A DNA stretch of 41,443 nucleotides from a virus: positions 1-41,443 of the IMG/VR virus record IMGVR_UViG_3300049912_000004; one strand, written 5' to 3'. The notes under the pieces are model-generated. The model ran no database searches. It was not told the origin of the DNA and was given only the letters and a program-made list of their open reading frames with translations. The position numbers and the translations under genes are program-made. Shown here one piece after another: positions 6,348-26,015 of the stretch. Position 1 is the stretch's first letter; each line of letters opens with the position of its first letter.

Positions 6348-6685
6348 AGAAATGACAGCAGTTCATCTTTGTCGATCTGTTTACTGTCCAGCCACATCAG
6401 GCCGTCATCTGGCGATGTGTTCTCGAATACCAGAACGTGGAAGCCATGGTAGTGCGGGTTGGCCTTGCACAGTGCATCAAGTTGCTGGAATATGCAAGAC
6501 TGCCAGTGCTTGGGCTGGCTGCCATGCCGCTTCTCTTCGATGATCATCCAATCCAGAGTATCATAGTTCTTCCAGATATAGTCCACGTTCGTGGCGAGAT
6601 AGCCGCGTTTCGAGTCGATCTCCGGTTGCTCTCTGAGCCACAGGCCGAACTCAGTGGAATGCGCGTCAAATCGTTGCTTGGTCAT
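6329..6685 (-). CDS. Phage protein with PD-(D/E)XK nuclease-like motif
   Basis: 118 aa. The middle reads TNVDYIWKNY...LDWMIIEEKRHG, i.e. an Asp followed ~15 residues later by E-x-K, the core of PD-(D/E)XK nucleases; the C-terminal YHGFHVLVFENTSPDDG is a block I have seen in similar phage proteins. It starts at the ATG at 6685 inside the end of the ParB-methyltransferase gene (20-base overlap), with AGGAG eleven bases upstream. A nuclease partner for that methyltransferase is conceivable but not shown. Confidence 0.55.
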   Translation of the reverse strand: MTKQRFDAHSTEFGLWLREQPEIDSKRGYLATNVDYIWKNYDTLDWMIIEEKRHGSQPKHWQSCIFQQLDALCKANPHYHGFHVLVFENTSPDDGLMWLDSKQIDKDELLSFLQFATR

Positions 6686-7904
6686 GTTCGCTCAATCTCC
6701 TTCTGGAAATGTTCACGTTGGCCTCGTCAATCTCCACACCGTGAAACAGACAACTGTGCATCAGCGATGCGATGCCAGTTGAGCCGCCGCCACAGAATGG
6801 ATCGAGTATCCACTGTCCCGGCAGGCAGACTTGGGTTACCACCGCTGCCATACCGCTGACAGACTGGCCCCAGTCGTGCGGGCCCTTCTCTGGCGCGTCA
6901 CTCACAAACACGTCTCCAAATATCTTTCCGCGATAGGCGTCGCCTTTGCGCGTGAACATGAGCAGTGGCTTCCATGTGGTGTTGACTTGGCGTTGTCGTA
7001 GTGGCGTTGGCTGTCCTGGCGTCAGGTAGGCCGCTGTCCAGTAGTAGTCCAGATGCGCCGTCATCATGGTCATGATCTCGTCTAGGTAGGACTGGCCACA
7101 CATCGCCACGAGTAGGCCACCAGGCCGTAACCACTCAAGGGCCCGGTGCGCCAATGTCTCATACAGTGGCAGGTATTCGCGGGGATAGGGCGGATCGGTG
7201 ATGATGAAGTCGTACTGGCGTGGTGCCGTCCAGGTGGTCATGTCGTCGTGGTAGACTTGCCAGCGGTCGGATGGTTGGATGTTCTGTACCGCCTGAGCCA
7301 TTGCAGCGCGTTCCTCTTTGCGTTTGCGCTCTTTCAGCACCTTCTTGGCCTTTGCCATTGTGAGTTTTCCAGACTCGATCTGTTCTGCCAAGTCGGGGGC
7401 TTCCATCCTCAGTCTCTTCATATCGCGGATATAATGGGCATTGGTTCCGGCGGCTTTTGCAGCCTTCTGCGCTGATTCCTGCTCGGTTTTAGACGGCGGA
7501 ACTTTTTCCGCCGTCTGCCCTGTCGTCTGGTATTCGCTGATCTTCCGCCGCCGTTCCTCTTCTGCCTCCGCCGCATATATCGGCTCTAACTTTTCGCCAA
7601 GCAAGATCTTCTGCTCAGTAGTCAAGTGTCGCCTGTGCAGATTCATTGACAACACAAAGTCAGTTGGCGATCCGTCTGCGTTCCAAGTGTGGAAGTATGG
7701 CTGTATGCCAGCCGCCACACATGCGCGGTGTCGGTTGCGCCCGTCCAGTATACTGCCGTCCGGGTGTAACGTGATCGGCTCCAGAAGACCATGCTCTGCT
7801 ATATCGGCCTTGAGTTGGTCAAAGTCAGCGCCTTCCAGCAGCGGGAACAGTTGCGCCGCTGCGTGGTATGGGCGGTCAAGTTCTGTCTGTAGCCAGTCGG
7901 TCAT
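6666..7904 (-). CDS. ParB-like nuclease domain fused to DNA methyltransferase
   Basis: 412 aa. Residues ~20-110 form a ParB/Srx-like domain (LEPITLHPDG, DGRNRHRA at 54-61, LHRRHLT). A charged helical middle (~110-210) follows, then a beta-class amino-methyltransferase with TDPPYP (D237-Y240) and SAM motif DPFCGGGSTG (from D368). Such fusions occur on phages and conjugative elements and modify DNA, commonly adenine. The ATG at 7904 has GGAG six bases upstream. It is the first gene behind its own promoter (8025-8053) and a structured leader. Paralogous in its second half to the gene at 829-1515. Confidence 0.85.
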   Translation of the reverse strand: MTDWLQTELDRPYHAAAQLFPLLEGADFDQLKADIAEHGLLEPITLHPDGSILDGRNRHRACVAAGIQPYFHTWNADGSPTDFVLSMNLHRRHLTTEQKILLGEKLEPIYAAEAEEERRRKISEYQTTGQTAEKVPPSKTEQESAQKAAKAAGTNAHYIRDMKRLRMEAPDLAEQIESGKLTMAKAKKVLKERKRKEERAAMAQAVQNIQPSDRWQVYHDDMTTWTAPRQYDFIITDPPYPREYLPLYETLAHRALEWLRPGGLLVAMCGQSYLDEIMTMMTAHLDYYWTAAYLTPGQPTPLRQRQVNTTWKPLLMFTRKGDAYRGKIFGDVFVSDAPEKGPHDWGQSVSGMAAVVTQVCLPGQWILDPFCGGGSTGIASLMHSCLFHGVEIDEANVNISRRRLSEHDQATI

Positions 7905-7924
7905 GTTGATCTCCACAAATGCAA

Positions 7925-8019
7925 AGCCCCGGTTGCTCGGCGGTTCCACTTGTCTAGGGTGGAGGTTGTGCCAAACAACCGGGGCTGATTGCCAATGTAT
8001 GAACCTCCGACCCTAGACA
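7925..8019 (-). promoter_or_regulatory. Structured 5' leader with two interleaved inverted repeats
   Basis: AGCCCCGGTTG (7925-7935) is perfectly complementary to 7976-7986. A 17-base arm at 7951-7967 (TGTCTAGGG...GGAGGTT) is complementary to 8002-8019 with one extra base. The arms alternate, so the RNA can form either of two hairpins or an H-type pseudoknot with loops of about 15, 8 and 15 bases. The promoter at 8025-8053 would start transcription at about 8018, right at the first arm, and the last arm ends ten bases before the GGAG of the ParB-methyltransferase gene. Layout fits a translational or attenuation switch. Confidence 0.65.
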
Positions 8020-8055: not shown

Positions 8056-8901
8056 CTACTGCACCTTGCACGAGCAACTGCACAGCACCGTCCCGCCTGC
8101 GCCTGGTGTCGGGCATGGTGCGCAGGCCGTCGGCGTTGGCTGTGGTGTGTACGTCGGATACGGTGTATACGTTGGCTGTGGCGTTGGGGCAGTGGCCCCG
8201 CCTGGAACGAGCACCATCTGCGCATCGTCCACGTACATGTCATTGTGCTTACCAGAATACTTGGTGCTACTCCAGATGGACACGCACGCCCAGGGCTTGA
8301 TCATCTGGACGGGCTGTGAGGTGTATTGCTTGTAGGTCGCACCGACATATTCCCAGTTGGAGAACACCGTGTCCTTGGCGAACCGAGAGCAGTCGCCGCG
8401 CGGGTTAATGCCAATGGTCAGGTAGATCTCAATCTCGCTCTTGCGCGGATCGTCGGTAGCACTTGCCCACGCCTGTGCCCACACCGATACCTGATAGACC
8501 TGGCCAACCTGCACCGGAATCGCCCCTTGCTGGACGCCAGCGTAATGGTTGCGATAGAACGAAAACCACATCTGGCTCTGCTGGCCGCTATGGACGCGGA
8601 TCGGGTCAATTGCCAAGGTCGCCGGTCTGTACTCAGGCCGAGCCGTGGGCACGCTGCCCAGGTTGCCGTCGTGAATAGCAGGATAGCCGGTCAAGCCATC
8701 CCAGTGAAACGGCTCCCACTGCGGTGCGATCTTGACTTCGCCCGCGCTCTCCCAGATGATAGGGTCGCCCTCAAAACTGGGATTCCTCAGCAGGTTCGCG
8801 CCCTGCGCCTGCACCTCTGTCCGTGGCGCGATGATCCACGCCGTGGCTGCAATCGGTATGAAGATCCCGACCAGGATGAATACGGCCGTCAATCGCCTCA
8901 T
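8056..8901 (-). CDS. Secreted carbohydrate-binding-like protein with Thr/Pro/Tyr linker
   Basis: 281 aa. A signal peptide (MRRLTAVFILVGIFIPIAATAW) is followed by NLLRNPSFEG (from residue 36), the hallmark opening of CBM4/9-like jelly-roll domains, ending near 235 with a typical VDDAQMVLV strand. Then comes a repetitive TPQPTYTPYP-like linker and a Cys-rich tail (CAPCP, CSCSCK). It should be exported and bind glycans. Linkers of this kind are common in Chloroflexota secreted proteins. ATG at 8901 has GGAGGTGG upstream. The plus-strand promoter at 8923 fires away from its start. Role could be surface masking or a host-derived moron. Confidence 0.75.
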   Translation of the reverse strand: MRRLTAVFILVGIFIPIAATAWIIAPRTEVQAQGANLLRNPSFEGDPIIWESAGEVKIAPQWEPFHWDGLTGYPAIHDGNLGSVPTARPEYRPATLAIDPIRVHSGQQSQMWFSFYRNHYAGVQQGAIPVQVGQVYQVSVWAQAWASATDDPRKSEIEIYLTIGINPRGDCSRFAKDTVFSNWEYVGATYKQYTSQPVQMIKPWACVSIWSSTKYSGKHNDMYVDDAQMVLVPGGATAPTPQPTYTPYPTYTPQPTPTACAPCPTPGAGGTVLCSCSCKVQ

Positions 8902-9909: not shown

Positions 9910-11001
9910 TTATACGCTCCTGTACTCTGGCTGTACGTCGATCGTCTCCTGACCTTCGGCGTCCAGACTGATGGTCACGGCTCGTACAATGCAGTCGAAC
10001 ACGAAGTCGCGATAGGTCGCCCGCACCCGGTCGCCCCAGTTCCAATCTCGACCAAACTGACATCCATCGGTATCGACCAGGTTGGCCGTCAATCGCTCCT
10101 TGGGCCGGCCCTCTGCCAACCGCGCGCGCGCGGCCTCGCGCACACAGTTGTCCGTCTGGCAATTGCGCGCGTCAGCGATGTCCTCGCGGCGGTTCCACGG
10201 CGCTTGTCCGACCCGGTCCAGGTCCTGCACCTCGACGGTGGTCCGCAGATCGTTGACGCCCTGGCCCAACCCATAGACGTAGTTGGCCTCCTCCGAGTAG
10301 TCGAATGTCAGCGTCGGGTTGGCCAGGTTTCCCTGGTATTGCGCGAACAGGACCCCCAAGCCAGTCAGGTCTTGCCGTGGCTGGCGAATGTAGGTGTGGA
10401 ACTCAGCGGCGATAGTCGTAGCACTGACATCCTCTGTCACGTCAAAGAAGACCTCATGACCCTCCTCTCGGCTGGACTGGTTGATCTCCTGGAGGATCTT
10501 GAGCACATTGCGCCAGGCGAACGCCTTTTCGAGTATCGGGCCAGCGCTGTCCGTTGTGGCTACAGAGAACCGACTCATCCGGCGTGGCCCAATGCCGCCC
10601 GCGCCCATGTTGAGATCCACCACGGCGGCCATCATGTCATCGGCTTCGTCCGTCATCACCGTCTCGGCCTCGTTGGCGTAGTAGCCATTGATGCGCCGCT
10701 GCAGCAGGTCGTTGAAATCCGGTCCGGCGATCTCCAGGATCTGCCGGTTCTCGTAGGTGCTATAGGTCCACTTGCGCACAAAGTATGTCCGATACAGCGA
10801 CAATCGCCCGCCGGTCGGCGCCCGCCACACCTGCACCATGCGATCCAACTTGATCAGGTCGGTATCGAATGACTCCGGCAGGCGCATGGACAGCCAACCG
10901 ACCTCGTTTGCCACGCGGGTGAACGTGCATCCGAGATGGCTGTCCAGCAGCGTGTGGCGCGTGCCGTTCTCAGTGGTGAACCAGAACTCGTAGCTTGCCA
11001 T
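9910..11001 (-). CDS. Tail hub/baseplate protein (ReqiPepy6 Gp37-like)
   Basis: 363 aa. The N-terminal pattern (SYEFWFTTENGT..., GWLSMRLPESFDTDLIKLDRMVQVWRAP, RTYFVRKWTYS, LEIAGPDFNDLLQRR) fits the siphovirus Gp37-like family that follows Dit and forms the tail hub, and the end carries a WNWGDRVRATY...IDVQPEYRS segment typical of the family's last domain. The ATG at 11001 follows the Dit-like gene's stop by a single base; no clear ribosome site, suggesting coupling. Context after tape measure and Dit supports the role. Confidence 0.75.
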   Translation of the reverse strand: MASYEFWFTTENGTRHTLLDSHLGCTFTRVANEVGWLSMRLPESFDTDLIKLDRMVQVWRAPTGGRLSLYRTYFVRKWTYSTYENRQILEIAGPDFNDLLQRRINGYYANEAETVMTDEADDMMAAVVDLNMGAGGIGPRRMSRFSVATTDSAGPILEKAFAWRNVLKILQEINQSSREEGHEVFFDVTEDVSATTIAAEFHTYIRQPRQDLTGLGVLFAQYQGNLANPTLTFDYSEEANYVYGLGQGVNDLRTTVEVQDLDRVGQAPWNRREDIADARNCQTDNCVREAARARLAEGRPKERLTANLVDTDGCQFGRDWNWGDRVRATYRDFVFDCIVRAVTISLDAEGQETIDVQPEYRSV

Positions 11002-11002
11002 A

Positions 11003-13477
11003 TCAATCCAGCGACCAGTAGCTATCTGCCCAGGTGGCCGTGACCGAGATGACCGGCCCGGCGGCGCACCAGACATACGCCGTAATCACATTCGTCCCCG
11101 GCTGCAGGCAGAACGTGCCCAGGTCAGAGCTAGGCAGGATGGCCGATGCGCGTCGTCCGAAGAACGACGACCAGACCTTCTTGCGGCTGGGCGTTGTATC
11201 CACGGTCAGCACCTCGCCCCCGAGCAGCGGGTAGTTGAAATGCAGCGTCTTGCCGGTCGTCTCGTTGCGAATCTGGTAGAGCGTAGCCAGCGGACCGCCC
11301 TTGTACACCGCCTCCAGGACGCGCTCGATCTTGAGCACCGGATAAGCGTTCTCGGTGCCGTCATTGGTGATAGTCACGCTACCGGCCATCTGTTCAGCCC
11401 CGGTCGAATCGTTGGCAACCCACACGTCATAGTTCTGGTCGATGACCGGATCGGGCACCCCAGTGTCAATGGCGTTGACCGCTGAACCAGCCCCCCAATA
11501 GAGATCGGGCAGGACCCACGAGGAGCCGTTCCAGATGGCAAAGTGCCGAGCTGCCATCCCTCCGATAACCACAAAGTCGCCGCCGACCCAGATCAATCCG
11601 TCCTCTGCAATATGGATCGAGTACACGGTATCATCTGCACCGGTAGACAGGGCAAACGGGACATGACCTTCCCAGCCGCGATAGCCGAGAATGTAGTCAG
11701 CATTGGCGATGCCCGCCGCGTTGGTGAACGCACCGCCAACGTAAAGGATATCATCGTGCGAGTGATTCATTGCGTACACGACGCCGTTCAGTGCGATGTC
11801 ATTGATCGCCGTCCATACCGCGCCGTACCCGTTGCAGGTAGCCCAATAGTCGGCGTCTCCATCACCGACCAGATTGGTGAAGTTGCCACCAATGGCGATG
11901 TAGTCCCGACTATCGATACTGATGGCATAGACGCATACCAGTGTCGTCGTGGCTGTCACGATGTCACCGACCGCTGTCCAGTTTGCGCCGTCCCAGCGAG
12001 CCAGGCAATGGGCCAGAGCCACGCCCTGTACATCAGTAAACGTGCCGCCCATGTACAGGTTCCCGGAATGGTCAAACTCCAGACAGCGCACGGAAGTGAA
12101 TGCCGCGCCGCCGGAGTTGGGGTTGCCGACTACCCCCCAGGCTGCACCGTCCCAAACGGCCACGTAGTCGGCGTTAGGGATCGCCGCCACGTCGGTGAAT
12201 GCCCCGCCGACGTAGATCTTGCCGTCCGGCCCCTCAGCAATGGCATACACGATGCCGTTCACGTCATGGTCTGCACCGACGTGCGCCCAGCCGGTGCCAG
12301 GGATATAGCGGGCTACGTAGTCGCGCCCATGGACGTTACCCCAGCCGGTAAAGTCACCGCCAATCCAGACTGACTTGTCGCTGGCAATACAGATGGCATT
12401 GATCGTGCCACCTGTAATTGGGTTGGCGGCCAGTCCCGTGGCACTCCATAACCCAGTGGTCATGAACCGTGCCGCGATGTAGCGCAGAGTTGCCGTGTCG
12501 TAAGAGTCCAGTACCGCCGCCGACTGGCCGATCTCGTACCAGTAGGGATCGGCTGCCAGGAAGCGCAAGGCCACGTTCTCCCAGGTGCAGTCACGGGCAT
12601 CGACCGCGTACTCCAGTCCGCCCTCGTAGTACGCCGAGATCTGCTTGTGGACCGTGGCCCCGGTGTAGCGGAATATGATCGGCTGATCGTCGGGCACCGC
12701 GTCTGGCTTGAGCACGTTGAGCAGCGCCTGACGCTTGGCGTGTAGGTTGGCAAAGCTGGTGCCCTGAATGAGACCGGTCATGGTGAATGGGCGACTTTGC
12801 GTCTTGTAGCCTTGCATCTCGCCGCCGGGAATGATGGCATAGGAGTCCAGCAGGTTGGCAATCGGCCCCATGCCCTCGCCCGAGACGCTACCCATCTTGA
12901 GGCCATACTGCGTGTCCAGATCGTACACGCGCCCGCCCGCGCGCGAGTAGGCGCTGCGCGTGCTTGTACTGGCGTGCGGTGCATTGTCCCAGGAACACCC
13001 CGGTTGATCACCGTCGCAGTAGGTGGTCCAGCCAGTCTTGGCCTCGACCTGCACGCCATCAACGTAAAAGTCGCCTGCGCCCGCGCCGTTCTGGTGGATG
13101 TAGAGTAGAGTGCCGGCGCAGTTTGCCGCCGCAACCTGTAGACCGTACACCGTCCAGTTGGCGTCCAGTACCTCGATCACAGCAGGTGCTGCATAGGCAA
13201 CGTTATTGAGCGACCAATCCCACGCTGCCGGGAGCGTGCCGCGTACTACCATTGACACGTAATGGTCTGCAGCTGCCAGGGTTGCCAGCGTCAACGTCAT
13301 GCCCTCGTTGTCGGCATTGCACTGGACGCGGTAGCTGTAGACGCCGTACTTGCTGTACGTCGTCTCGCGGGTGACGGTAGTACCCGCCTCCGCTGTGAAG
13401 TTTAGCGCGACCTCGGCTGACGGGTTGAGCACTCGGTTGTTGGTTGTCTCGGGTACGACGATCTTCCAATCGCTCAT
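11003..13477 (-). CDS. Distal tail protein (Dit-like) with inserted beta-propeller and N-terminal glycan-binding-like domain
   Basis: 824 aa, well above a plain Dit (~250-300). Residues ~15-150 look like a CBM4/9-type jelly roll (NRVLNPSAE..., DFYVDGVQVEA). ~185-335 is the Dit N-half (FTMTGLIQGTSFANLHAKRQALLNVLKPD, ALRFLAADPYWYE). ~340-665 holds six repeats of the form V-W/Y-V-GG-x-FT followed by an A-x-WDG-x-W unit, at about residues 372, 423, 476, 529, 580 and 630, i.e. a probable six-bladed propeller. ~695-824 is the Dit C-half (SVTITNDGTENAYPVLKI, LLGGEVLTVDTTPSRK). Start overlaps the tape measure stop as ATGA. Likely binds a host surface glycan during adsorption. Confidence 0.8.
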   Translation of the reverse strand: MSDWKIVVPETTNNRVLNPSAEVALNFTAEAGTTVTRETTYSKYGVYSYRVQCNADNEGMTLTLATLAAADHYVSMVVRGTLPAAWDWSLNNVAYAAPAVIEVLDANWTVYGLQVAAANCAGTLLYIHQNGAGAGDFYVDGVQVEAKTGWTTYCDGDQPGCSWDNAPHASTSTRSAYSRAGGRVYDLDTQYGLKMGSVSGEGMGPIANLLDSYAIIPGGEMQGYKTQSRPFTMTGLIQGTSFANLHAKRQALLNVLKPDAVPDDQPIIFRYTGATVHKQISAYYEGGLEYAVDARDCTWENVALRFLAADPYWYEIGQSAAVLDSYDTATLRYIAARFMTTGLWSATGLAANPITGGTINAICIASDKSVWIGGDFTGWGNVHGRDYVARYIPGTGWAHVGADHDVNGIVYAIAEGPDGKIYVGGAFTDVAAIPNADYVAVWDGAAWGVVGNPNSGGAAFTSVRCLEFDHSGNLYMGGTFTDVQGVALAHCLARWDGANWTAVGDIVTATTTLVCVYAISIDSRDYIAIGGNFTNLVGDGDADYWATCNGYGAVWTAINDIALNGVVYAMNHSHDDILYVGGAFTNAAGIANADYILGYRGWEGHVPFALSTGADDTVYSIHIAEDGLIWVGGDFVVIGGMAARHFAIWNGSSWVLPDLYWGAGSAVNAIDTGVPDPVIDQNYDVWVANDSTGAEQMAGSVTITNDGTENAYPVLKIERVLEAVYKGGPLATLYQIRNETTGKTLHFNYPLLGGEVLTVDTTPSRKKVWSSFFGRRASAILPSSDLGTFCLQPGTNVITAYVWCAAGPVISVTATWADSYWSLD

Positions 13478-15843
13478 GTGGCTAATGACCTCAACATCTG
13501 GAAGTCCATAGCGACGGTCCCCGATGAGGCCCGCGTATTGACCGTCTGATTGAAGGTCTGATTGATCGTAGTGCTCTGCTCGTGGCTGTAGACGCGGCTG
13601 CCCACGGGCAGTTGCACCAGTTCGGTGCCACGTTCGCCGACCTTGACCAGACCGGAGGCAATGCCGCCCTCCTGAAGACCAAGGAGTCGTTTGCCCGTTG
13701 CCGTAACCTTCTCGATGATCCGTAAAACGACAGACTTTTCGGCTGGTATTCTGCCGATGGACGCATTGAAGGCATCCGTCTTGGCAATAGCAGAGGCAAC
13801 GGCTCTATCAGAATAAATGCCCAGGGAGGTGATGTATTCCAGAATGGTACTTTTCCCCGTCACATAAGCATTCGTATTCGTGACGAGGCTACTGTAGAGT
13901 AGTCCATTGCCAGTAGTCAGATAGTCGGATCGCAACTTCGCCTGTCCGAGCGCCTTGTTGTATTCATCCTGGTTTATCGTGCCTGCAGCGAGTGCCTTCT
14001 TGAGCTCCACGGTGATCGAGAGTACCAGGTCATCTTGTGACCGCTTCAGAAAGCCTGTGGCACGTTCCACGGCAAGAACATCGGGTACGGTTTTTTCCAT
14101 CGTATTCCGATAGTATTGGTAGGCGTCACCCGCCACCCGGACAGAGTTAGCACTTGTGGCGATCTCAGTTGTGGCAGCGGCCATCTTGGGCGGGGCTGCC
14201 ACAACTGCCGTCGTCAATGCGTTGACTTGTGCTGTAGCCGTGCCCGCAGCGACACCGACCCGCTCCAGGTTGGCAATCGTAGTAGTAGTCGTCTCGTCTC
14301 CGATTGTCGTGGTGACAGTCCTTGTCGTTGCGCCCCCGGCTGGCTTGACAACCAACTCTGTGGTCTCTATGACGACAGCTTTCTTGGCAGGGATCTTGTC
14401 GATGGATTCGGTAAGCCCATCAGTCTTCTCGGTTGCTGCTGTCGCTACGCCAGCGAGCTTGCTCAATTCCTCGTTGGTCTGCATCTCGGCAGGCAGTGCC
14501 TTGTACATTGCCAGGCGAAGAGTATCATTCGTCGCTGCCCACCGTCCTATCCAAGTGATCACCGTCGCCCCGGCTTTGATCACCCATTCCAGGATGTCCC
14601 TCACAGCCCGGAGCGATAGGATCACCGGATTGATAGCCAGGGCAAACTTGCCCATTGCTGATACCAGAGGAATCGAGGCGAATATCTTGGATAGGGTGTT
14701 GATCTGCGAGATGGTATCTGGCAACTTTGGCAGTCGCTCCATGAGCCAGTCCAGGATGCCAGACGTTTCGAGCAGTTTCGATGCCATCACCGCTAGACTA
14801 TCCTTGAGATTCGCAACCGTAGCGGCCAGGAAGTCGAGTTTGTCATCGGCAGACATGCCAGCAGTACCCAGCTTCTCAAGTTGAATACGTCCCTCTGCCA
14901 TTACCGCCAACTTGAACGCGTCGTCCTTACTCAATCCTTGTTGCGTCTTCTGGAGTTCCTTTATCCGTGTTTCGACGTTGGCGATATTGATGCCATACTC
15001 ATATAATCTACGAGTACTACCCGTTGCCAGCAATTGGGCAAAGTCCATGACGCGATCCCCTGCCTCTTTCATAGGATCGCCTAACCCAACGGCCATCTTC
15101 GCTACTTCACCCATCTGAGCAGCGTTGTCCACCAGACCCATTCCCATGAGTTTGGAGATCGCCAGCATAGCCTCTGTGTCTGGTACTGTCCCCCTGGTCG
15201 CCGCCCGGAATATCTCTAGGTTCTGAGCCGCCGCTGTCGCGCTGCCAGAAAACGCAATGTAGCGATCTCTGATCTCCTGAACAAGCGCACCCTGCTTGAC
15301 AAACTCCAGCCCCTCTTGTGCAAGCTTGATCACTGCCATTGCAATGGCGGCAGTCTTGACAGCCTGTTCTAATTCTGAGATTTCTTTCTTGGCAGTCTTC
15401 GCGCCTTCGCCCGTCTTTTTCAGTCCTTCGGCTGCCTTCTCTGCCTCTGTACCTGTGCCCTGCAGTTCCACACCGGCATCCTGTGCTGCCACGGCAGTAT
15501 CTTCGAGTCCATCGACAGTGTCATAGGCCACCGCGAACATGTCTTTGATTTCACTGGTAGCGGTAGCGACCGGGTCGGCCATAGCGTCAATGCCGGAACC
15601 GGCGTCGGCGCTTGCATCTGCCAAGTCGCCGACGCCATCAACTGCTTCCGCTGTGGAAGCACCCAAGTCCTCTAGGCTCTGTTCAATATCCTTGTTCAGG
15701 TCTGCGAACTTTTCCAGGGCTTCGCTGGCATCGTTTGTGCTGTCATCTAGTAACCCCATGGCACGCGCGGCACTCTCGGCCGCTCGGCTGATGGTGTCGC
15801 GCATGTTCATCAGGATATTGACAGTGTAAGCAGTTGACCCCAT
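13474..15843 (-). CDS. Tail tape measure protein
   Basis: 789 aa. The Ala/Thr/Lys-rich helical composition, several hydrophobic segments in the middle (~370-430) and a C-terminal GLQEGGIASGLVKVGERGTELVQLPVGSRV block are typical of siphovirus tape measures, which set tail length and are ejected into the cell. At about 0.15 nm per residue the tail would be near 120 nm. Position right after the G/GT chaperone genes and before Dit is canonical. ATG at 15843 shares bases with the preceding stop (TAATG). Confidence 0.9.
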   Translation of the reverse strand: MGSTAYTVNILMNMRDTISRAAESAARAMGLLDDSTNDASEALEKFADLNKDIEQSLEDLGASTAEAVDGVGDLADASADAGSGIDAMADPVATATSEIKDMFAVAYDTVDGLEDTAVAAQDAGVELQGTGTEAEKAAEGLKKTGEGAKTAKKEISELEQAVKTAAIAMAVIKLAQEGLEFVKQGALVQEIRDRYIAFSGSATAAAQNLEIFRAATRGTVPDTEAMLAISKLMGMGLVDNAAQMGEVAKMAVGLGDPMKEAGDRVMDFAQLLATGSTRRLYEYGINIANVETRIKELQKTQQGLSKDDAFKLAVMAEGRIQLEKLGTAGMSADDKLDFLAATVANLKDSLAVMASKLLETSGILDWLMERLPKLPDTISQINTLSKIFASIPLVSAMGKFALAINPVILSLRAVRDILEWVIKAGATVITWIGRWAATNDTLRLAMYKALPAEMQTNEELSKLAGVATAATEKTDGLTESIDKIPAKKAVVIETTELVVKPAGGATTRTVTTTIGDETTTTTIANLERVGVAAGTATAQVNALTTAVVAAPPKMAAATTEIATSANSVRVAGDAYQYYRNTMEKTVPDVLAVERATGFLKRSQDDLVLSITVELKKALAAGTINQDEYNKALGQAKLRSDYLTTGNGLLYSSLVTNTNAYVTGKSTILEYITSLGIYSDRAVASAIAKTDAFNASIGRIPAEKSVVLRIIEKVTATGKRLLGLQEGGIASGLVKVGERGTELVQLPVGSRVYSHEQSTTINQTFNQTVNTRASSGTVAMDFQMLRSLAT

Positions 15844-18676: not shown

Positions 18677-19554
18677 CGTGGCAAACTCCACTTGTACTTC
18701 TTGATGACATCAGTCACGTAGCGCGGTATCCCCTCCGGGATGGTGATCACGCCCGCGCCCGGGATGGCCGTGGTCACGAACACACTCGAATCTTTGGCCC
18801 GGTAGTTGTAGGCTCCCATCACCAGCACCGCCTGCTTGACATCCGCTGGGCACGTCGCCGACCAGCCCCACGTGCCCGCCACGCTCACCCACATATCCGT
18901 GTCAAACTCCCAGTAAGCCGTCACCAATGGCGGTGCCGGATTCGTCAACTCGATGTAGTGGTAGGGCGGCGCGTCGTTGCGCGGGAGCAGGACATAGCTT
19001 GCCGCCGCGATGACCGTCGCCGCCGTGTCGCCGTTGATCAGACCACCTGCGGCGATGGTCAACAGGTCATCGTCCAGGCGCAGCGTCCGGCTGTTAGGCC
19101 ACAGTGCATCGCTGCGGTAGTAGCGCGTCGCCGTCGTACTCTCGAAGTGGCGGTGCGTCTCACTCTCGATGTACTCCTCTGCTGCGTCCAGGGCCTGCTG
19201 GCACACAGTGTCATCGGCCAGCGCCTTTTTGATGTAGCATGGCGCGGTACTGGCTGCGGTCAGGTCAAGGTCAGTGCCTGCAATGGCAAAGGCTGCTGTC
19301 GTCGCCAGTTGGATCTGTGGGTCAGTGCCCAGAATGACAAAGTACACGGTCCCGGCTACCAAGGGCACAGGCAGCACGCCACCCGTGCCCACGGACACGA
19401 GCACCTTGTCGGCGACGTGCAGCGTAGACCACAACTTGTTCGTGGCCGATAGGTTCAGCGTGTCGCCGGCCAGGTCGCCCGCGCCGACGATGAAGGTATC
19501 GCTGTTTGACAGGTCCAGGTACTGCTTGAACTCAGCCAGTGTTACCAGACTCAT
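18673..19554 (-). CDS. Head-tail connector/adaptor protein (gp6-like)
   Basis: 293 aa. It starts LVTLAEFKQYLDLSN and later has CQQALDAAEEYIESETHRHFESTT...RYYRSD, then DVKQAVLVMGAYNYR and PRYVTDVIKKYKW, the helical core of gp6/gp15-type adaptors that sit under the portal. Between residues ~20 and 110 an extra strand-rich domain (TLNLSATNKLWSTL, GTVYFVILGTDPQIQLAT) interrupts the adaptor, about 90 residues longer than usual. ATG at 19554 with GGGAGG six bases upstream, overlapping the glycosidase gene. Confidence 0.7.
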   Translation of the reverse strand: MSLVTLAEFKQYLDLSNSDTFIVGAGDLAGDTLNLSATNKLWSTLHVADKVLVSVGTGGVLPVPLVAGTVYFVILGTDPQIQLATTAAFAIAGTDLDLTAASTAPCYIKKALADDTVCQQALDAAEEYIESETHRHFESTTATRYYRSDALWPNSRTLRLDDDLLTIAAGGLINGDTAATVIAAASYVLLPRNDAPPYHYIELTNPAPPLVTAYWEFDTDMWVSVAGTWGWSATCPADVKQAVLVMGAYNYRAKDSSVFVTTAIPGAGVITIPEGIPRYVTDVIKKYKWSLPR

Positions 19555-20531
19555 GCAGCGCCTCCCTTGCCAAAGTTCGCGCCGACCAGGGCCAGGTCCA
19601 AGATGTCAACCCGGCCGTCCGGCTGTCCAGTTGGCCCGGTGATGTCCGCACGATGATCCCATGATACTGAGCCGTTCAGTCCCTTGAACGCGCGCCCAAT
19701 GTCCGTCAGGCTGCCGTCTGCGTTGCCGAGCGAGCTGTTGCAGGCCGGCCCCGGTGCCCACGACTCCGAGCCGGTCATGTACGCCTGAAACCAGAATGCC
19801 CGTGTGACTCGCGGCTGCGTGTCCAGCCAGGCGAAAGCGGCTTTCAGGAATACAGCGCTGTCCAGGCCCCAGCACGGATAGAGGGCGAACTCTGTGACCC
19901 AGACCTCTGACACTCCCCATACTTGCGCTAGTGCTATGGCCCGACTCACCTGCTCTTTGAACGTAGTCAGCGGATCGCCGCCGCCCTTGTAGTACCAATG
20001 CACAGCCAGGGCATCCACTTGAGGAGGCGTGCCATACAACTGCTGATACTTGCTCCACCACAGACTGAGCCAGGTCAGATCCATGACGCCGGGCGATACG
20101 AGTTTCCGCCCGGGGTACGCCGTCTCCACGAGCGCCCACGCACGCGCGCCTGCGTCCGGGGTCATGTTCGCCTGCGCCGGTTCGTCCGGCTCGTTGAAAC
20201 CCATCAGCCATTGGCCGTCACCGATCAGGACGGCGCCGATCTGCGAAGCATTCCACAACATCGGGATGCCCGCCCCGCCTGGCGTCGGCCCCCAGTTATA
20301 CCAGGTCTCCACACCAGCGGCTGTGCGAATATCAGCCCGCTTGTACGTGTCGCCCGCGCCCCTCATGCACTTGCTCACATTAACCCTCGGCAGATAGACG
20401 ATGTACTCGCCGCTTGTCCTGGAGGGCTGCGCTGTGAGAGCCATTCCTAGCGTCAGAACCGCCAGAATTGCGGCCAGTTTCACAATTCGCGCTGTAGGAA
20501 CGCCTCCTAGAGGCACAGTCCACCTACCCAC
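19551..20531 (-). CDS. Secreted glycoside hydrolase (GH128-like) with dockerin-like tail
   Basis: 326 aa. A signal peptide (VKLAAILAVLTLGMALTA, ~17-34) is followed by YIVYLPRV, then a TIM-barrel-like domain with GFNEPDE (acid E114), DALAVHWYY and WVTEFALY (nucleophile E214), the pattern of the GH128/glycosyl hydrolase catalytic-core family acting on beta-1,3-glucans. The end (DITGPTGQPDGRVDILDLALVGANFG) is a Ca-binding dockerin-like repeat. Not a usual virion gene, yet it overlaps the adaptor gene. The start is uncertain: GTG at 20531, with other GTGs downstream and no good ribosome site. Likely degrades host or biofilm polysaccharide. Confidence 0.75.
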   Translation of the reverse strand: MGRWTVPLGGVPTARIVKLAAILAVLTLGMALTAQPSRTSGEYIVYLPRVNVSKCMRGAGDTYKRADIRTAAGVETWYNWGPTPGGAGIPMLWNASQIGAVLIGDGQWLMGFNEPDEPAQANMTPDAGARAWALVETAYPGRKLVSPGVMDLTWLSLWWSKYQQLYGTPPQVDALAVHWYYKGGGDPLTTFKEQVSRAIALAQVWGVSEVWVTEFALYPCWGLDSAVFLKAAFAWLDTQPRVTRAFWFQAYMTGSESWAPGPACNSSLGNADGSLTDIGRAFKGLNGSVSWDHRADITGPTGQPDGRVDILDLALVGANFGKGGAA

Positions 20532-20995: not shown

Positions 20996-23900
20996 CTACT
21001 TGATGACGCCATCAAAGGCATTCTCCGCGACATAACTGGATCCCCACCGGATAGGCTGCGTGAACGCCGTCGCGAATGTCGCCCCGGCCAGTGTCACGAC
21101 CGCCACTCCGTTGAATGTCAGAGTTGCCGCACCGGGGTTCATCACCACCTGTACCGTATTCTCGACGTTGGCAGCCCACAGGCCCGCGATGTTGCCCACG
21201 GCTGTGACGAGGCCCCCGCCGTTCGCATTGTAGCTCAGGCGCAGTACGTTGGCTTCCCGCCTTGCTCGGATGTAGTTGTTGGCGTCCTCGCGCAGATCGA
21301 ACAGGTATTCCGACGCATCGCCGAACCCCGCCGCCAGTGCGATCTCGTGGCGCGGGATGTAGCGTGCCCGGATGTGGATACTTGATGCTGTTTGGAACAC
21401 CGCCGCTGGGTTAGTGAGCAGGTCAAATCCATCGACGCGGATGCCGTCAGCCTCCGCGCTGTTCACCGCACTCGCCGGGGTGACGGTGAGGGTGATTGGG
21501 GTCAGGGCGAAGGCGTAGATGTCGTCGGTGTAACGTTCGGCGACGGCACCGGCCCCAGCAGCCATTGTGAATACAGTATTAGCAAGAACTACTCTCCAGG
21601 CACCTCCAGAATGCTTCCAGATGCTCGTTACTGGTGGAACGACGTAGGTTGCTGCTAGAGTGTATTGCAGCGGTAGATTTCCAGCAGCGTTACCACCAAA
21701 TCGCACGTATGCCGTTCCATCCCCGTAGTACCACATGCCACCACCAATGTATACATTTGCGGCGATGGTCATGGCGTAGGTCATCGACTCTACGGACGCC
21801 CCAGTATTCCACTGCACACTTTGAACACCAGCGTGAACGATAGCCGCTTCCGCTTCTGTGTCCCCAGCATCCAGGGTGGCTGTTGCCCATGCTGTCAGCA
21901 AGAATGGGTTGCCAGCACCTGCCTCGTGATCGCCTCCGCTGAGCAAGCTCGGCTGCACCTCAAACTGATGCAGCCCGATCTCGCCGGTGGAGTTGTTGTT
22001 GATGCGACACTCCATCGACGTGCAGCCCACGGGTGTCCTGATGACGTGGATCGTCTCGGTGGCGTAGGGATACTGTGACTCGTGCTTGCCGACTGGGGGC
22101 ATCAGCATGTACCAGTCGCCCACGTCCCAGTCGTTATCGGTACCGCCAGCGAGAACACCAGTGCAAGTTGTCCTGTCGCCACTCACAGCTGTGAGGGTTG
22201 TCGCGCTTCCATCGGTGATATTGTACGCTCGCCAACCAATCAACTGTTGCCAAAAGTAGCCAGTGCTACAAATCAGGGTCGGAGAGTTGGCGGCACCATC
22301 GTGCTGCCCGTAGCGTCGGGGCAGGTAGTAGTTGACCCCGACCTGGACGCCGCCAATCATGTCCCAGAACTGCAGATACGGCTGAGAGCGTGGATCGGCA
22401 TGCGTGACCACTCGTACCACGTAGTCCTGTGATGCGGTGACGCCAATGTCGCGGATAGTCAGCCCGTCACCAGCGGCAGATGAGCCGAACTTGTAGCCCC
22501 AGTTGAACACCCTCTCACCTGGTGCATCTTGGGCCATGTCAGGGGTGTTGAGCCACTTGCCAGCGCCCATGGTGATGACACCGTTATTGTTTACATCTAC
22601 CACTGCGAGTGCGACCAGTCCAGCACCATCAGTAAACGGCCATTGTTCTACCGTGTTACCATCAGCAGCAGGCAGGTTTGCGCGGTCAGGTGGACAAAAA
22701 GCAGAACCCGCAGGGGCGGTTGCAGCGCTATAACGGTCATTATTGGAGTATCGTTGCCAGCCAAACGCACCATTCCAATAGACAGCACCAGTCGTGCTGC
22801 GTCCCATGTTCAGGTTACTACCAGCATCAGACTGATAAGCGCCTGTTCCTGCTGCCCCTAATGTTCCCCAGAGTCCATCAAGAGCAACACGACATTTCCT
22901 TGTGGTATCATCATAATATCCAACTACATGATGACATCTGTTGTCACGTGGCATTGCCAGTGTAGCCGTAGCATCTGTGGTAGCAAGTTGTACCAACATC
23001 GTCAACACATCAGCGGCACTGACATACAATACCCAACCTGTATTAGCTCCTGCATCGCCCTTTTCAGCTATCGTCCTAGCATTTGCAGTTGTCGCTGCAT
23101 TCCTTATCCACCCATCCCAAGTTATCGTGCCGCCACTTGGAATGTCGTCTATCGTATGGTCACTGCCACAGTTGATTACCGTCGCCACCCCATCGCACTG
23201 CAACGATGTCGGCACTATCGGTGTGGCTACCGGTGCCCAGACGCCAGACCAGGTGCAGTTGGTCAGGGTACCAGCATTGTTCACGTCTACCGTAGGCGTA
23301 AGAACTGCAAGCGTGCCCTCATTGGCTGCCCAACACTCTACGGTGTTTGCATCTGCACCCGGAAAGACACGGGGCGGAATGAAACCAGTCAGTGGCGTAT
23401 AGTGGGCGTTGTTGTGAAGTCGGGGCCAACCGAGAGCACCCAGAAGATAGGATGCTGCTGAGTCAGAGCGCCTACCCATGTAGAGCGACTGCCCAACGTC
23501 AGACTGGTAGTTTCCATTGCCTGTGCTGACTGCGCCCCATACACCATCCAAGCAAACATAGCCAGCCTTGGTTGTATCATTGTAGGATAGAACGCCATGA
23601 TGCCACTTGCCATCTTGGACAGATACCGCCAGAGTTGGCGTGCTGTCAGTTGTCACCAAGTCAACGACGCCAGTCAGATACCCAGACGAGTTGATGTAAA
23701 GCGCCCAGCCCGTGAGTGCAGTCCAGCCCTTGCTGAGTAGAACGTAGGTGCCAGCAGTTGCGGTATCAAGGCGAAACCAACACTCTGCCTGGAAGGTCAG
23801 CCCGCCCGCACCCAAGTCGTCTAGTGTATGGTCATGCCCACAGTCGATGCGGCTACTCGTCCCATTGAACTCCACCGCGAACGGACTGCCCAGGTAGCCA

Positions 23901-24763
23901 CCGTCCCTGCACATCGTCACGTCGGGGACTGAACTTGCGTGTGGGTGTGACCACATCTGTGTGGCAGAGGTCACGAGGGCACCGACGGTACTGTCAGTAG
24001 GCAAAGAGGCCATCGTGTCCCAAGAGCCGTTGACGAGTGCCCAGTCCTTCCCGGCTCCGGCTGCGTACACCTGCCCGATCTCGTCAGCCCCGTTGCCTAC
24101 GGAATCCCCGTAGCCGTTGCTATCGGTCCAGACTCGACGGGAGATGACGAGACCTTGGATGAGGGCGTCAACTTGTGGAGAACCTCCCAAGTCGGTTCCC
24201 AGATAACCAGTCCCTGGAGCCGCTGGTGTAGGTACTGTAGTAATGCCATAGGTGTGCGCATTGTTCACTGAAACGCACACATAATCCGTACCATCTATCG
24301 TCCTGATTGCACTCCATCGAAATACTAGATGGTACAGAGTTCCAGCAGTCCACGCAACTGTGCTTACGGTAAAAAGACTCTGGCCGCCAACAGTAAAACG
24401 TAGATTATTGCCATTAGTCTTATCTAAGGAGATGTAGCCATTGCGGAATATATAATGACCCTTGTTATCATTCCCCGCCCACTCCGGCGTGATCCAAAAG
24501 CTGATCGACCCCTGGTACGGGTCGAAGTTGGCGTAGCAGAACCCCGTCAAGTTCCCGATCTGGTTGCCACGAGGGTACGTCACCGAGTCTGGCGTGCCCG
24601 TGCCATCCCACTTGCCCTGGATGATGGGGGCAGCGGCGAAGGGGCCGGCGGGAGGGAGGCGCTTAGCCATGCCAGGCGTCATCGTCGCGCCGGCCAGATC
24701 TGGCGTCTGCCATTTCGTTTGCGCACCCAGCAGCACGCGCCGGGTTGACAGCATCATGGTCAT
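20996..24763 (-). CDS. Giant multi-LamG (lectin-like) surface protein
   Basis: 1255 aa, the largest gene. Three concanavalin-like LamG modules can be read: ~82-215 (SISFWITPEWAG), ~295-450 (LTFQAECWFRLD, WALYINSSG, KWHHGVLSYNDTTK) and ~520-675 (ITWDGWIRNA, WVLYVSAAD, CHHVVGYYDDTTRK). The last two with their linkers form a clear ~225-residue tandem duplication. A C-terminal half (~745-1255) has further jelly-roll-like parts (LTIRDIGVTASQDYVVRVVTHAD; DNNYIRARREANVLRL). It probably binds glycans on the host or forms head or tail appendages. Start at 24763 with AGGGG five bases upstream. Stretches around 22.7-23.7 and 24.2-24.5 kb look more AT-rich than the rest. Confidence 0.7.
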   Translation of the reverse strand: MTMMLSTRRVLLGAQTKWQTPDLAGATMTPGMAKRLPPAGPFAAAPIIQGKWDGTGTPDSVTYPRGNQIGNLTGFCYANFDPYQGSISFWITPEWAGNDNKGHYIFRNGYISLDKTNGNNLRFTVGGQSLFTVSTVAWTAGTLYHLVFRWSAIRTIDGTDYVCVSVNNAHTYGITTVPTPAAPGTGYLGTDLGGSPQVDALIQGLVISRRVWTDSNGYGDSVGNGADEIGQVYAAGAGKDWALVNGSWDTMASLPTDSTVGALVTSATQMWSHPHASSVPDVTMCRDGGYLGSPFAVEFNGTSSRIDCGHDHTLDDLGAGGLTFQAECWFRLDTATAGTYVLLSKGWTALTGWALYINSSGYLTGVVDLVTTDSTPTLAVSVQDGKWHHGVLSYNDTTKAGYVCLDGVWGAVSTGNGNYQSDVGQSLYMGRRSDSAASYLLGALGWPRLHNNAHYTPLTGFIPPRVFPGADANTVECWAANEGTLAVLTPTVDVNNAGTLTNCTWSGVWAPVATPIVPTSLQCDGVATVINCGSDHTIDDIPSGGTITWDGWIRNAATTANARTIAEKGDAGANTGWVLYVSAADVLTMLVQLATTDATATLAMPRDNRCHHVVGYYDDTTRKCRVALDGLWGTLGAAGTGAYQSDAGSNLNMGRSTTGAVYWNGAFGWQRYSNNDRYSAATAPAGSAFCPPDRANLPAADGNTVEQWPFTDGAGLVALAVVDVNNNGVITMGAGKWLNTPDMAQDAPGERVFNWGYKFGSSAAGDGLTIRDIGVTASQDYVVRVVTHADPRSQPYLQFWDMIGGVQVGVNYYLPRRYGQHDGAANSPTLICSTGYFWQQLIGWRAYNITDGSATTLTAVSGDRTTCTGVLAGGTDNDWDVGDWYMLMPPVGKHESQYPYATETIHVIRTPVGCTSMECRINNNSTGEIGLHQFEVQPSLLSGGDHEAGAGNPFLLTAWATATLDAGDTEAEAAIVHAGVQSVQWNTGASVESMTYAMTIAANVYIGGGMWYYGDGTAYVRFGGNAAGNLPLQYTLAATYVVPPVTSIWKHSGGAWRVVLANTVFTMAAGAGAVAERYTDDIYAFALTPITLTVTPASAVNSAEADGIRVDGFDLLTNPAAVFQTASSIHIRARYIPRHEIALAAGFGDASEYLFDLREDANNYIRARREANVLRLSYNANGGGLVTAVGNIAGLWAANVENTVQVVMNPGAATLTFNGVAVVTLAGATFATAFTQPIRWGSSYVAENAFDGVIK

Positions 24764-25265: not shown

Positions 25266-26015
25266 TTATCCACCACCAGCATCGCGTACCGAGATCGCAC
25301 GGACCCAGTCCACTGTCATCGTCCGCGAGTCAGCACTTCCTGTCAGGAACTCGATGGTCAGGCGCAGGTACTCGTTATTCGGCACCTCTGGACGATCTCG
25401 ATGGAGAAACCCGGTGAAGTTGCCGTCCACATAGTGCTGAAAGCAGTCTCCATCGTAATAGATCTCGTAGGTGTGGAACTGGTCGCCCAGGATCGTGGCC
25501 GCCGCTGTCGCCGATTCGAGTGAGTCCTTCTCCGCGACAAAGTAGACGTTGGTGTCCCCATCCACTTTGCGGAAGTACAGACCGTCCGTCACCCCGCCCA
25601 GAGCCGACGTATTGGTTATCGCCAGGCCGACCAAGAAGTCGCACTCGATGGCGTTCCAAACTTTGAGGTTGATGCCAAAGTAAAACGGATACTGCGCATC
25701 GAAGCCAAAGTTCTCGCCAGCCCCGGTGCTGCCATGGCCCAACTGCATCTTGAATCCATCGTTCTCGTTGGTGCCCGATGTGATGAGCAGCGCACCGCCT
25801 GCAAAGTCCATGACCTCTGCCGTGCTGTTGCCCGCGCCCTCGACGATGGTACACACAAAGTCGCTCGGGTCGTGGGTAGTCGGGTCCACGGCCAGCGTAA
25901 CGAACTCCTGCAGATACTTGTTCACGCCAGAGCCAAATGCCTCGTACCATCGCCACGGGTAGACGGAGTCGTAGTATACGGTTGCGTTTCGGACCTGTTT
26001 TGTCAGGACGCTCAT
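25266..26015 (-). CDS. LamG-like structural protein, paralogue A
   Basis: 249 aa. A single concanavalin-like sandwich can be read from KMQLGHGSTGAGE, YFGINLKVWNAIECDFLVGLAIT, DGLYFRKVDGD, TYEIYYDGD and the closing LRLTIEFLTG...VDWVRAISVRD. It aligns along its full length with the next gene (26026-26772), so the pair arose by tandem duplication. Likely a virion surface protein with glycan affinity. Start at 26015 has GGAGG upstream. Confidence 0.7.
   Translation of the reverse strand: MSVLTKQVRNATVYYDSVYPWRWYEAFGSGVNKYLQEFVTLAVDPTTHDPSDFVCTIVEGAGNSTAEVMDFAGGALLITSGTNENDGFKMQLGHGSTGAGENFGFDAQYPFYFGINLKVWNAIECDFLVGLAITNTSALGGVTDGLYFRKVDGDTNVYFVAEKDSLESATAAATILGDQFHTYEIYYDGDCFQHYVDGNFTGFLHRDRPEVPNNEYLRLTIEFLTGSADSRTMTVDWVRAISVRDAGGG

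Follow-up and report, generated by a model that had tools for sequence, protein, structure and literature searches.

The question raised by this locus is whether a phage distal tail protein (Dit) can carry a complete beta-propeller within its fold and, if so, what such a propeller might contribute at the tip of a tail. The window, i.e., the whole stretch of viral DNA analysed here (41,443 nt; IMG/VR virus record IMGVR_UViG_3300049912_000004), contains on its minus strand an open reading frame (ORF; 11003-13477) for a protein of 824 amino acids, in which a sequence-only reading had seen two Dit halves separated by a six-repeat, Kelch-like propeller. In our view, it is well supported that this protein consists, from its N- to its C-terminus, of a jelly roll resembling carbohydrate-binding modules (CBMs), a motif region, a Dit ring half, a seven-bladed propeller, and the Dit C-terminal half; by analogy with known decorated Dits, it likely functions as a surface-binding collar.

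Domain architecture and genomic setting

The ATG of the Dit-propeller gene overlaps the stop codon of the tape-measure-like gene that precedes it (ATGA), and a gene for a Gp37-type baseplate hub follows, whose listed ORF likely contains the true start internally, near position 11001 (Table 1). The window also encodes, on the same strand, a terminase, a portal, and an HK97-type capsid protein. The placement of the gene between tape measure and hub (Tal) recurs in relatives of the protein: a comparable large ORF is found just upstream in 55 of 59 Dit loci, the remaining four being truncated by the contig start, and a Gp37-like hub gene is located downstream in 54 of them, within about 3.3 kb and mostly adjacent, with the remaining five truncated by the contig end. 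These 59 loci are the 65 of the family minus L048 and L050-L054, in which no Dit half is visible. Also encoded on the minus strand of the window are, amid the structural genes, a protein with a glycosyl hydrolase catalytic core (19551-20531; PF11790, E 8.1e-34) and a weakly matching GH16-like ORF (25266-26015; E 8e-4, below the cut-off); a 1255-amino-acid ORF between the capsid and connector genes (20996-24763) that has neither a PHROG match at 0.001 nor a Pfam match at 0.01; downstream of the hub gene, a 281-amino-acid protein (8056-8901) that begins with a hydrophobic, signal-like stretch and matches CBM_4_9 weakly (E 0.025); and a ParB-like N-terminus fused to a DNA methyltransferase (6666-7949).

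Table 1. Features of the Dit-propeller gene and of its two neighbours, in window coordinates.
Feature	Coordinates	Strand	Evidence
Tape-measure-like gene, 789 aa, directly upstream of Dit	13474..15843	(-)	Weak PHROG tape-measure match (E 0.0042) and position
Dit-propeller gene, 824 aa	11003..13477	(-)	ORF, PHROG profiles, AlphaFold2 model
N-terminal CBM-like jelly roll, residues 1-150	13028..13477	(-)	CBM22 4xup profile E 4.1e-9; Foldseek 4xup TMt 0.56-0.59; pLDDT about 90
TTYCDGDxxGCxW..H.S.S.R motif, residues 151-177, most conserved stretch of the family	12947..13027	(-)	15 columns with at least 80% identity, 34 dereplicated members
Dit N-terminal ring domain, residues 178-333, ADPYWYE near its end	12479..12946	(-)	hhalign TP901-1 ORF46 Dit E 5e-4; AlphaFold2 model
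Split blade 7, outer strands, residues 334-352	12422..12478	(-)	AlphaFold2 strands 334-337, 344-345; R337, G342, W344 conserved in 30-33 of 34
Propeller blade 1	12272..12421	(-)	AlphaFold2 model, family blade HMM
Propeller blade 2	12116..12271	(-)	AlphaFold2 model, family blade HMM, single-blade search
Propeller blade 3	11954..12115	(-)	AlphaFold2 model, family blade HMM
Propeller blade 4	11792..11953	(-)	AlphaFold2 model, family blade HMM
Propeller blade 5	11639..11791	(-)	AlphaFold2 model, family blade HMM
Propeller blade 6	11489..11638	(-)	AlphaFold2 model, family blade HMM
Split blade 7, inner strands, residues 664-692	11402..11488	(-)	AlphaFold2 strands 669-672, 685-688
Dit C-terminal (galectin-like) domain, residues 693-824	11006..11401	(-)	PF22768 SPP1_Dit 732-800 E 0.0023, below curated cut-off; hhalign Attoomi Dit E 1.9e-8
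Gp37-type baseplate hub gene, directly downstream of Dit	9910..11076	(-)	Sipho_Gp37 E 3.1e-17 (Pfam), phrog_538 E 3.3e-22

The profile of a minor tail protein (phrog_106) spans residues 136-770 of the window protein (E 8.5e-10) with only 254 profile positions and hence crosses the large insert, while phrog_5577 matches the C-terminal part and the Dit profile phrog_202 matches weakly. In hhalign comparisons, the ring half aligns with the Dit of TP901-1 (at a probability of only 31.6), whose CSDPF corresponds to AADPYW of the window protein in a second match that is not significant alone; the ring domain gave no significant match to p2 ORF15 (0.074), and the C domain gave none to the C domains of TP901-1 and p2. 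The C domain is recognised by the Pfam SPP1_Dit model, albeit below the curated cut-off, and that of the Streptomyces phage Attoomi, to which it aligns, itself scores above this cut-off. No match was obtained with the single protein by phmmer against the PDB up to E 1, or by tblastn against 50,697 phage records at 1e-5; when residues 320-824 were used at E values up to 1, tblastn returned only six weak records, five from Streptomyces phages (C domain) and one from a Leptospira phage. A plasmid search matched only two Hymenobacter propeller-type proteins.

An AlphaFold2 monomer prediction, based on an alignment of 38 sequences, yielded a model with a mean pLDDT of 88.5, a pTM of 0.85, and no segment below 50. 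Seven four-stranded blades are present in this model: blades 1-6 are whole, and blade 7 is assembled from residues 334-346 and 664-692, contributed from both sides of the insertion, so that the ring is closed in a velcro fashion. Among the top rows of the realigned Foldseek matches, the propeller (residues 342-692) superimposes on seven-bladed WD40 proteins with a Z of about 26 and an rmsd of 2.6-2.8 over about 270-282 residues. The matches also include the Dit chains of SPP1 (2x8k; TMt 0.42-0.43), monocin (9j1k_K; TMt 0.66), Bxb1, and Douge, as well as CBM22 chains; since long, multi-domain alignments with high rmsd are among them, the domain assignments rest on the summed evidence. Both the propeller and the Dit fold anticipated by the sequence-only reading are thus present in the predicted structure and its matches, and the family HMMs place the Dit halves, which had been put at about residues 185-335 and 695-824, at 178-333 and 693-824. 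The predicted model supports a seven-bladed Kelch/WD40-like propeller inserted between two Dit-fold halves. The domain ahead of the Dit, which had been described as CBM4/9-like, is likewise borne out: the AlphaFold2 model, Foldseek, and profile matches agree on the jelly-roll fold of CBM4/9/22, and besides CBM22 other xylanase and laminarinase CBM structures are matched, with no match of the single protein sequence to Pfam CBM_4_9 itself.

The insertion site is empty in plain Dits of about 320 amino acids from Anaerolineae-order genomes (e.g., L100, L102, L105; 313-331 amino acids, stop to stop), whose halves lie 10-18 residues apart with no blades. About 170 residues of another kind occupy the same site in gp16 of phage Attoomi, encoded right after the tape measure, in which a ring-like part extends to about residue 150 (weak, E 0.033) and the C domain begins at residue 319. 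The empty site, together with the different insert of Attoomi, makes this look like an established modular site that has received a new kind of module, with an extra domain at the C-terminal-domain junction as in evolved Dits. We consider the Dit-propeller to be an evolved Dit variant whose architecture is real and well supported.

A family of propeller-bearing Dits

The sequence-only reading knew of no other Dit with a Kelch-like propeller and proposed a search for homologues with the same insertion; such homologues were found, and scans of IMG/VR and of genomes together returned 65 distinct related loci. The IMG/VR scan with a two-sequence alignment contributed 53 loci (including L001) and the genome collection two, while a scan with the C domain only gave 16 loci, ten of them on new contigs. 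All ten carry the propeller (in L090, the gene is broken into two ORFs), the remaining six are contigs already seen with a propeller, and no propeller-less Dit was returned among the 16. The insertion is hence the rule in a large family from uncultured phages and not a unique trait of the window protein. Within the aligned set, identities to the window protein are 24-49%, and the loci are mostly derived from different metagenomes. Both Dit halves are present in 56 of the 73 family ORFs (window included; six pairs are near identical), and the other 17 are truncated at a contig end, split or frameshifted, without a C-half match (L046), or represent the N-terminal module only (L050-L054). Six whole repeats are found in 47 of the 56 two-half ORFs, seven in four (the extra match being weak, 6-8 bits), five in three, and two and thirteen in one each. 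The jelly roll and the TxYCDGDQ module occur in L050-L054 in other, non-Dit tail-region proteins, and this pair hence appears to be mobile between tail genes. Two propeller-Dit-like genes per locus are found in L004 (5641-10944) and L041 (1553-6909), where they are adjacent, and in L049 (1233-7737), where they lie about 2.2 kb apart, hinting at mixed or stacked rings.

The six repeats of the sequence-only reading stand, inasmuch as the family blade HMM detects exactly six whole repeats (residues 351-679), but the blades number seven, the seventh being split across the insertion site in the AlphaFold2 model. A single blade (residues 403-454) used as a query recovers the five others in the same protein with 10.2, 24.7, 7.8, 29.8, and 15.2 bits. 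As the best single-blade score among 500 shuffled proteins was 8.7, the 7.8-bit repeat alone is not significant; with the family HMM it scores 29 bits. When the insert was shuffled 500 times, this model, trained on an alignment (A2) that does not include L001, L042, L044, or the new loci of the C-domain scan, gave one match in 25 shuffles and two in none. As a profile, the repeats match Kelch structures (designed SAKe6, 6.6e-19; KLHL12, 7.3e-10), but the Pfam models matched in the insert by the single sequence are Reg_prop and the propeller model Rax2, the latter below its cut-off, with no Kelch model among them. The orthology of blade positions is weak across the family: the best match is at the same position in 33% versus 17% by chance, and blade identities are 0.335 for the same position across the family and 0.327 within a protein.

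The longest arrays contain 13 whole repeats (L001, L044), and L042 has 12 scored repeats plus a degenerate one visible in its sequence. Both 6 and 13 are 7n-1 (13 being 2x7 minus one split blade), as is expected if seven-blade rings close by one split blade. In the AlphaFold2 model of L044 (mean pLDDT 71.2, with values below 50 in mid-propeller), VIA-align recognises one closed seven-blade ring that begins at residue 361, ends at about residue 1054, and has only about 275 aligned residues, so that a second ring may be nested within it. In L001 and L042, the Dit gene is cut precisely between the propeller and the C domain (L001:9139-9492, L042:9133-9492), the latter residing on an ORF of about 115 amino acids; the two loci are 50% identical in the first ORF and 67.5% in the C domain. 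The split consists of stop codons followed by an ATG, and because the stops differ (TAG versus TAA and TGA) and an AAAGG or AGGGTGA stretch is found upstream of each C-domain ATG, a single sequencing error cannot explain both cases. A cut at this border marks the propeller as a self-contained unit, and the repeat numbers (6 or 13 whole plus a split blade) and the natural split together offer a clean view of the insertion, doubling, and detachment of a ring fold. The three genes between the split Dit and the hub of L001 (9550-12196) resemble, as judged by eye, glycosyltransferases and a methyltransferase.

Several propeller-Dit phages can be tied to Chloroflexota genomes, a phylum whose phage receptors are, to our knowledge, poorly known. 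L056, located in a metagenome-assembled genome titled Anaerolineae, phylum Chloroflexota, is a contig of phage origin (TerL, serine recombinase, and DnaB in two end pieces), and the Dit C domain was found in nine of 154 genomes of the order to which that genome belongs. Eight propeller-Dits, each with both halves, six to seven repeats, and a position beside the hub, were verified in 82 genomes of the order of genome G221, whose own propeller-Dit contig continues into DsbA-like, kinase, and TPR/cyclase genes. At E 1e-20, 38 genomes out of 400 from Chloroflexota gave matches, almost all of which fall on propeller columns, and in the phylum to which G001 belongs the only match in 195 genomes was the Dit locus itself. 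The Chloroflexota matches are suggestive of a shared use of the propeller and are not proof of its capture from a host. An archaeal host was considered for L055, a contig binned as Lokiarchaeota, and was set aside as a case of uncertain binning.

Possible functions of the inserted propeller

We consider it probable that the protein is an evolved Dit whose propellers and jelly rolls form a collar about the tail tip for adhesion to the host surface. The Dit core would form the ring connecting the tail tube to the hub; the propeller is inserted as one closed velcro unit where the ring domain meets the peripheral C-terminal domain, and the CBM-like jelly roll is fused at the N-terminus. Six copies would thus surround the tail tip with six propellers and six jelly rolls, and this collar might bind host surface polymers, either glycans or glycoproteins, and position the hub for ejection. 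What the data show are the anatomy, by prediction and homology, the gene context, the conservation, and the empty or otherwise filled site; the hexamer is taken over from known Dits, and the peripheral placement of the propellers, surface binding, and the ligand are inferred as well.

The tail tip might then be a glycan-recognition platform, a reading whose sole support at the level of sequence is the lack of conserved residues of catalytic appearance in the propeller, together with the high variability of the strands that line its channel. When 34 dereplicated members are compared, strand B proves to be the conserved scaffold (1.50 bits) and the inner, channel-lining strand A variable (2.42 bits); 29 propeller columns are conserved in at least 80% of these members and are nearly all Gly or aromatic, the only charged ones being R337, which sits in the closing blade, and D658. 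No catalytic set is conserved in the propeller of these 34 members, and the pattern is easier to reconcile with a binding scaffold than with an enzyme. Three points count against the collar: the top loops of the propeller are not more variable than the bottom AB loops (2.33-2.35 versus 2.39 bits), so that there is no clear hypervariable binding face as a simple receptor-face reading would have it; overall, the divergence of the propeller does not exceed that of the Dit core; and a comparably inserted seven-bladed propeller serves in podoviral nozzles as a part of the channel and not as an adhesin (PMC9509320).

Alternatively, the propeller might pack on neighbouring subunits, the hub, or fibres, and build or gate the channel or dock fibres rather than contact host polymers, a structural role that we regard as unlikely. 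It would follow the precedent of the SU10 and T7 nozzles, in which, according to the description in PMC9509320, the propeller lines the channel, and the Sf6 entry 7sg7 is indeed among the Foldseek matches (rank 11); moreover, propeller-Dits are retained beside the connector in compact gene clusters with no recognisable tape measure. Against it stand the flanking of the window Dit by a tape-measure-like and a hub gene, the existence of plain Dits with no propeller, the variability of the channel-lining strand A, and the location of the C-terminal domains of known Dits, which lie at the periphery of the ring and carry CBM inserts there (as described in PMC7291167).

The compact clusters just mentioned combine a propeller-Dit that lacks the jelly roll with capsid, portal, connector, and hub genes (L077, L132, L133, and L136 from genomes; L139 and L140 from IMG/VR) or, in the genome fragment L138, with connector and hub only. 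A tape-measure-like ORF between connector and Dit was recognised in none of these seven, of which L132 and L138 to L140 are short contigs whose further genes may lie outside the view. The start of the Dit directly adjoins the end of the connector in L077 and L133, between which the identity of matched genes is about 31-51%, and in L133 the hub is followed by a gene for a tail spike; a 503-amino-acid fibre-like ORF (L136) or a 261-amino-acid ORF (L139) intervenes between connector and Dit, and in L140 the portal lies ahead of the Dit. L134, L135, and L137 possess a large ORF upstream of the Dit, as in ordinary siphoviruses. It is possible that the compact clusters represent tail-tube-less particles. 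Together with the podoviral nozzle propeller (as presented in PMC9509320), they give rise to a speculative reading, to which we assign a rather low probability, in which the propeller-Dit would be the whole tail of a conserved compact set (terminase, portal, capsid, connector, propeller-Dit, hub, and in some cases a spike) with neither a tail tube nor a tape measure that can be recognised. Its ring would dock on the head connector in a nozzle-like manner, and siphoviral Dits would be linked to podoviral nozzles or have converged with them. Provided that these clusters correspond to real particles, a Dit is able to stand in for the tail.

An enzymatic role, in which the propeller or the jelly roll would break down or alter a surface polymer, seems to us highly improbable: sialidase, GH43, GH74, and CylK propellers are among the Foldseek matches, and the structural region of the window contains two other genes that resemble glycoside hydrolases, but the near absence of charged residues from the conserved propeller columns, with R337 in the closing blade, speaks against catalysis. 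A chance or assembly artefact, in which two genes were fused by misassembly, has a negligible probability: nothing was found in its favour, and the family refutes it, since 47 of 73 ORFs have both Dit halves around six whole repeats, come for the most part from separate metagenomes, and share, in the aligned set, 24-49% identity with the window protein.

Comparison with known systems

The best structural match of the window protein is the uncharacterized uncultured-phage protein BFVD A0A6J5MW16 (E 8.8e-35, 23% identity over 663 columns), which is shorter (596 amino acids) and unannotated. In the open-licence PMC literature, no propeller-bearing Dit was found; 'evolved Dit' and 'propeller' do not co-occur there, and Dit, propeller, adhesion device, and phage are never mentioned together.

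The podoviral nozzle (SU10, T7) resembles the Dit-propeller in that a tail-ring platform, hexameric in the nozzle, is split by a velcro-closed seven-bladed propeller; as far as described in PMC9509320, however, the nozzle is bound to the short-tail adaptor, whereas the window gene has a tape-measure-like gene on one side and a hub gene on the other. A ring seated straight on an adaptor, with neither tube nor tape measure, is not what the window displays, since the tape-measure-like gene is adjacent. Gp45 of the Staphylococcus phage phi11 is likewise a siphophage host-recognition protein with a beta-propeller, thought to hold cell-wall GlcNAc, but its propeller, by the account in PMC4901313, is five-bladed and part of a separate trimeric receptor-binding protein, while that of the window protein is seven-bladed and part of the Dit. 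The distal tail protein of the mycobacteriophage Bxb1 (9d93; Foldseek rank 2) is a large decorated Dit as well; its extras are, by the description in PMC13252515, three CTE-like domains instead of a propeller. The evolved Dits of Lactobacillus phage J-1, the lactococcal 936 and P335 phages, and streptococcal phages also carry an extra domain in the peripheral C-terminal domain (PMC7291167, as described there), but their inserts are CBMs (BppA-like), in contrast to the closed seven-bladed propeller and the N-terminal jelly roll found here. The standard insert of a Dit lineage that is represented in dozens of uncultured phages is, then, an entire seven-bladed propeller, whose fold offers large binding faces.
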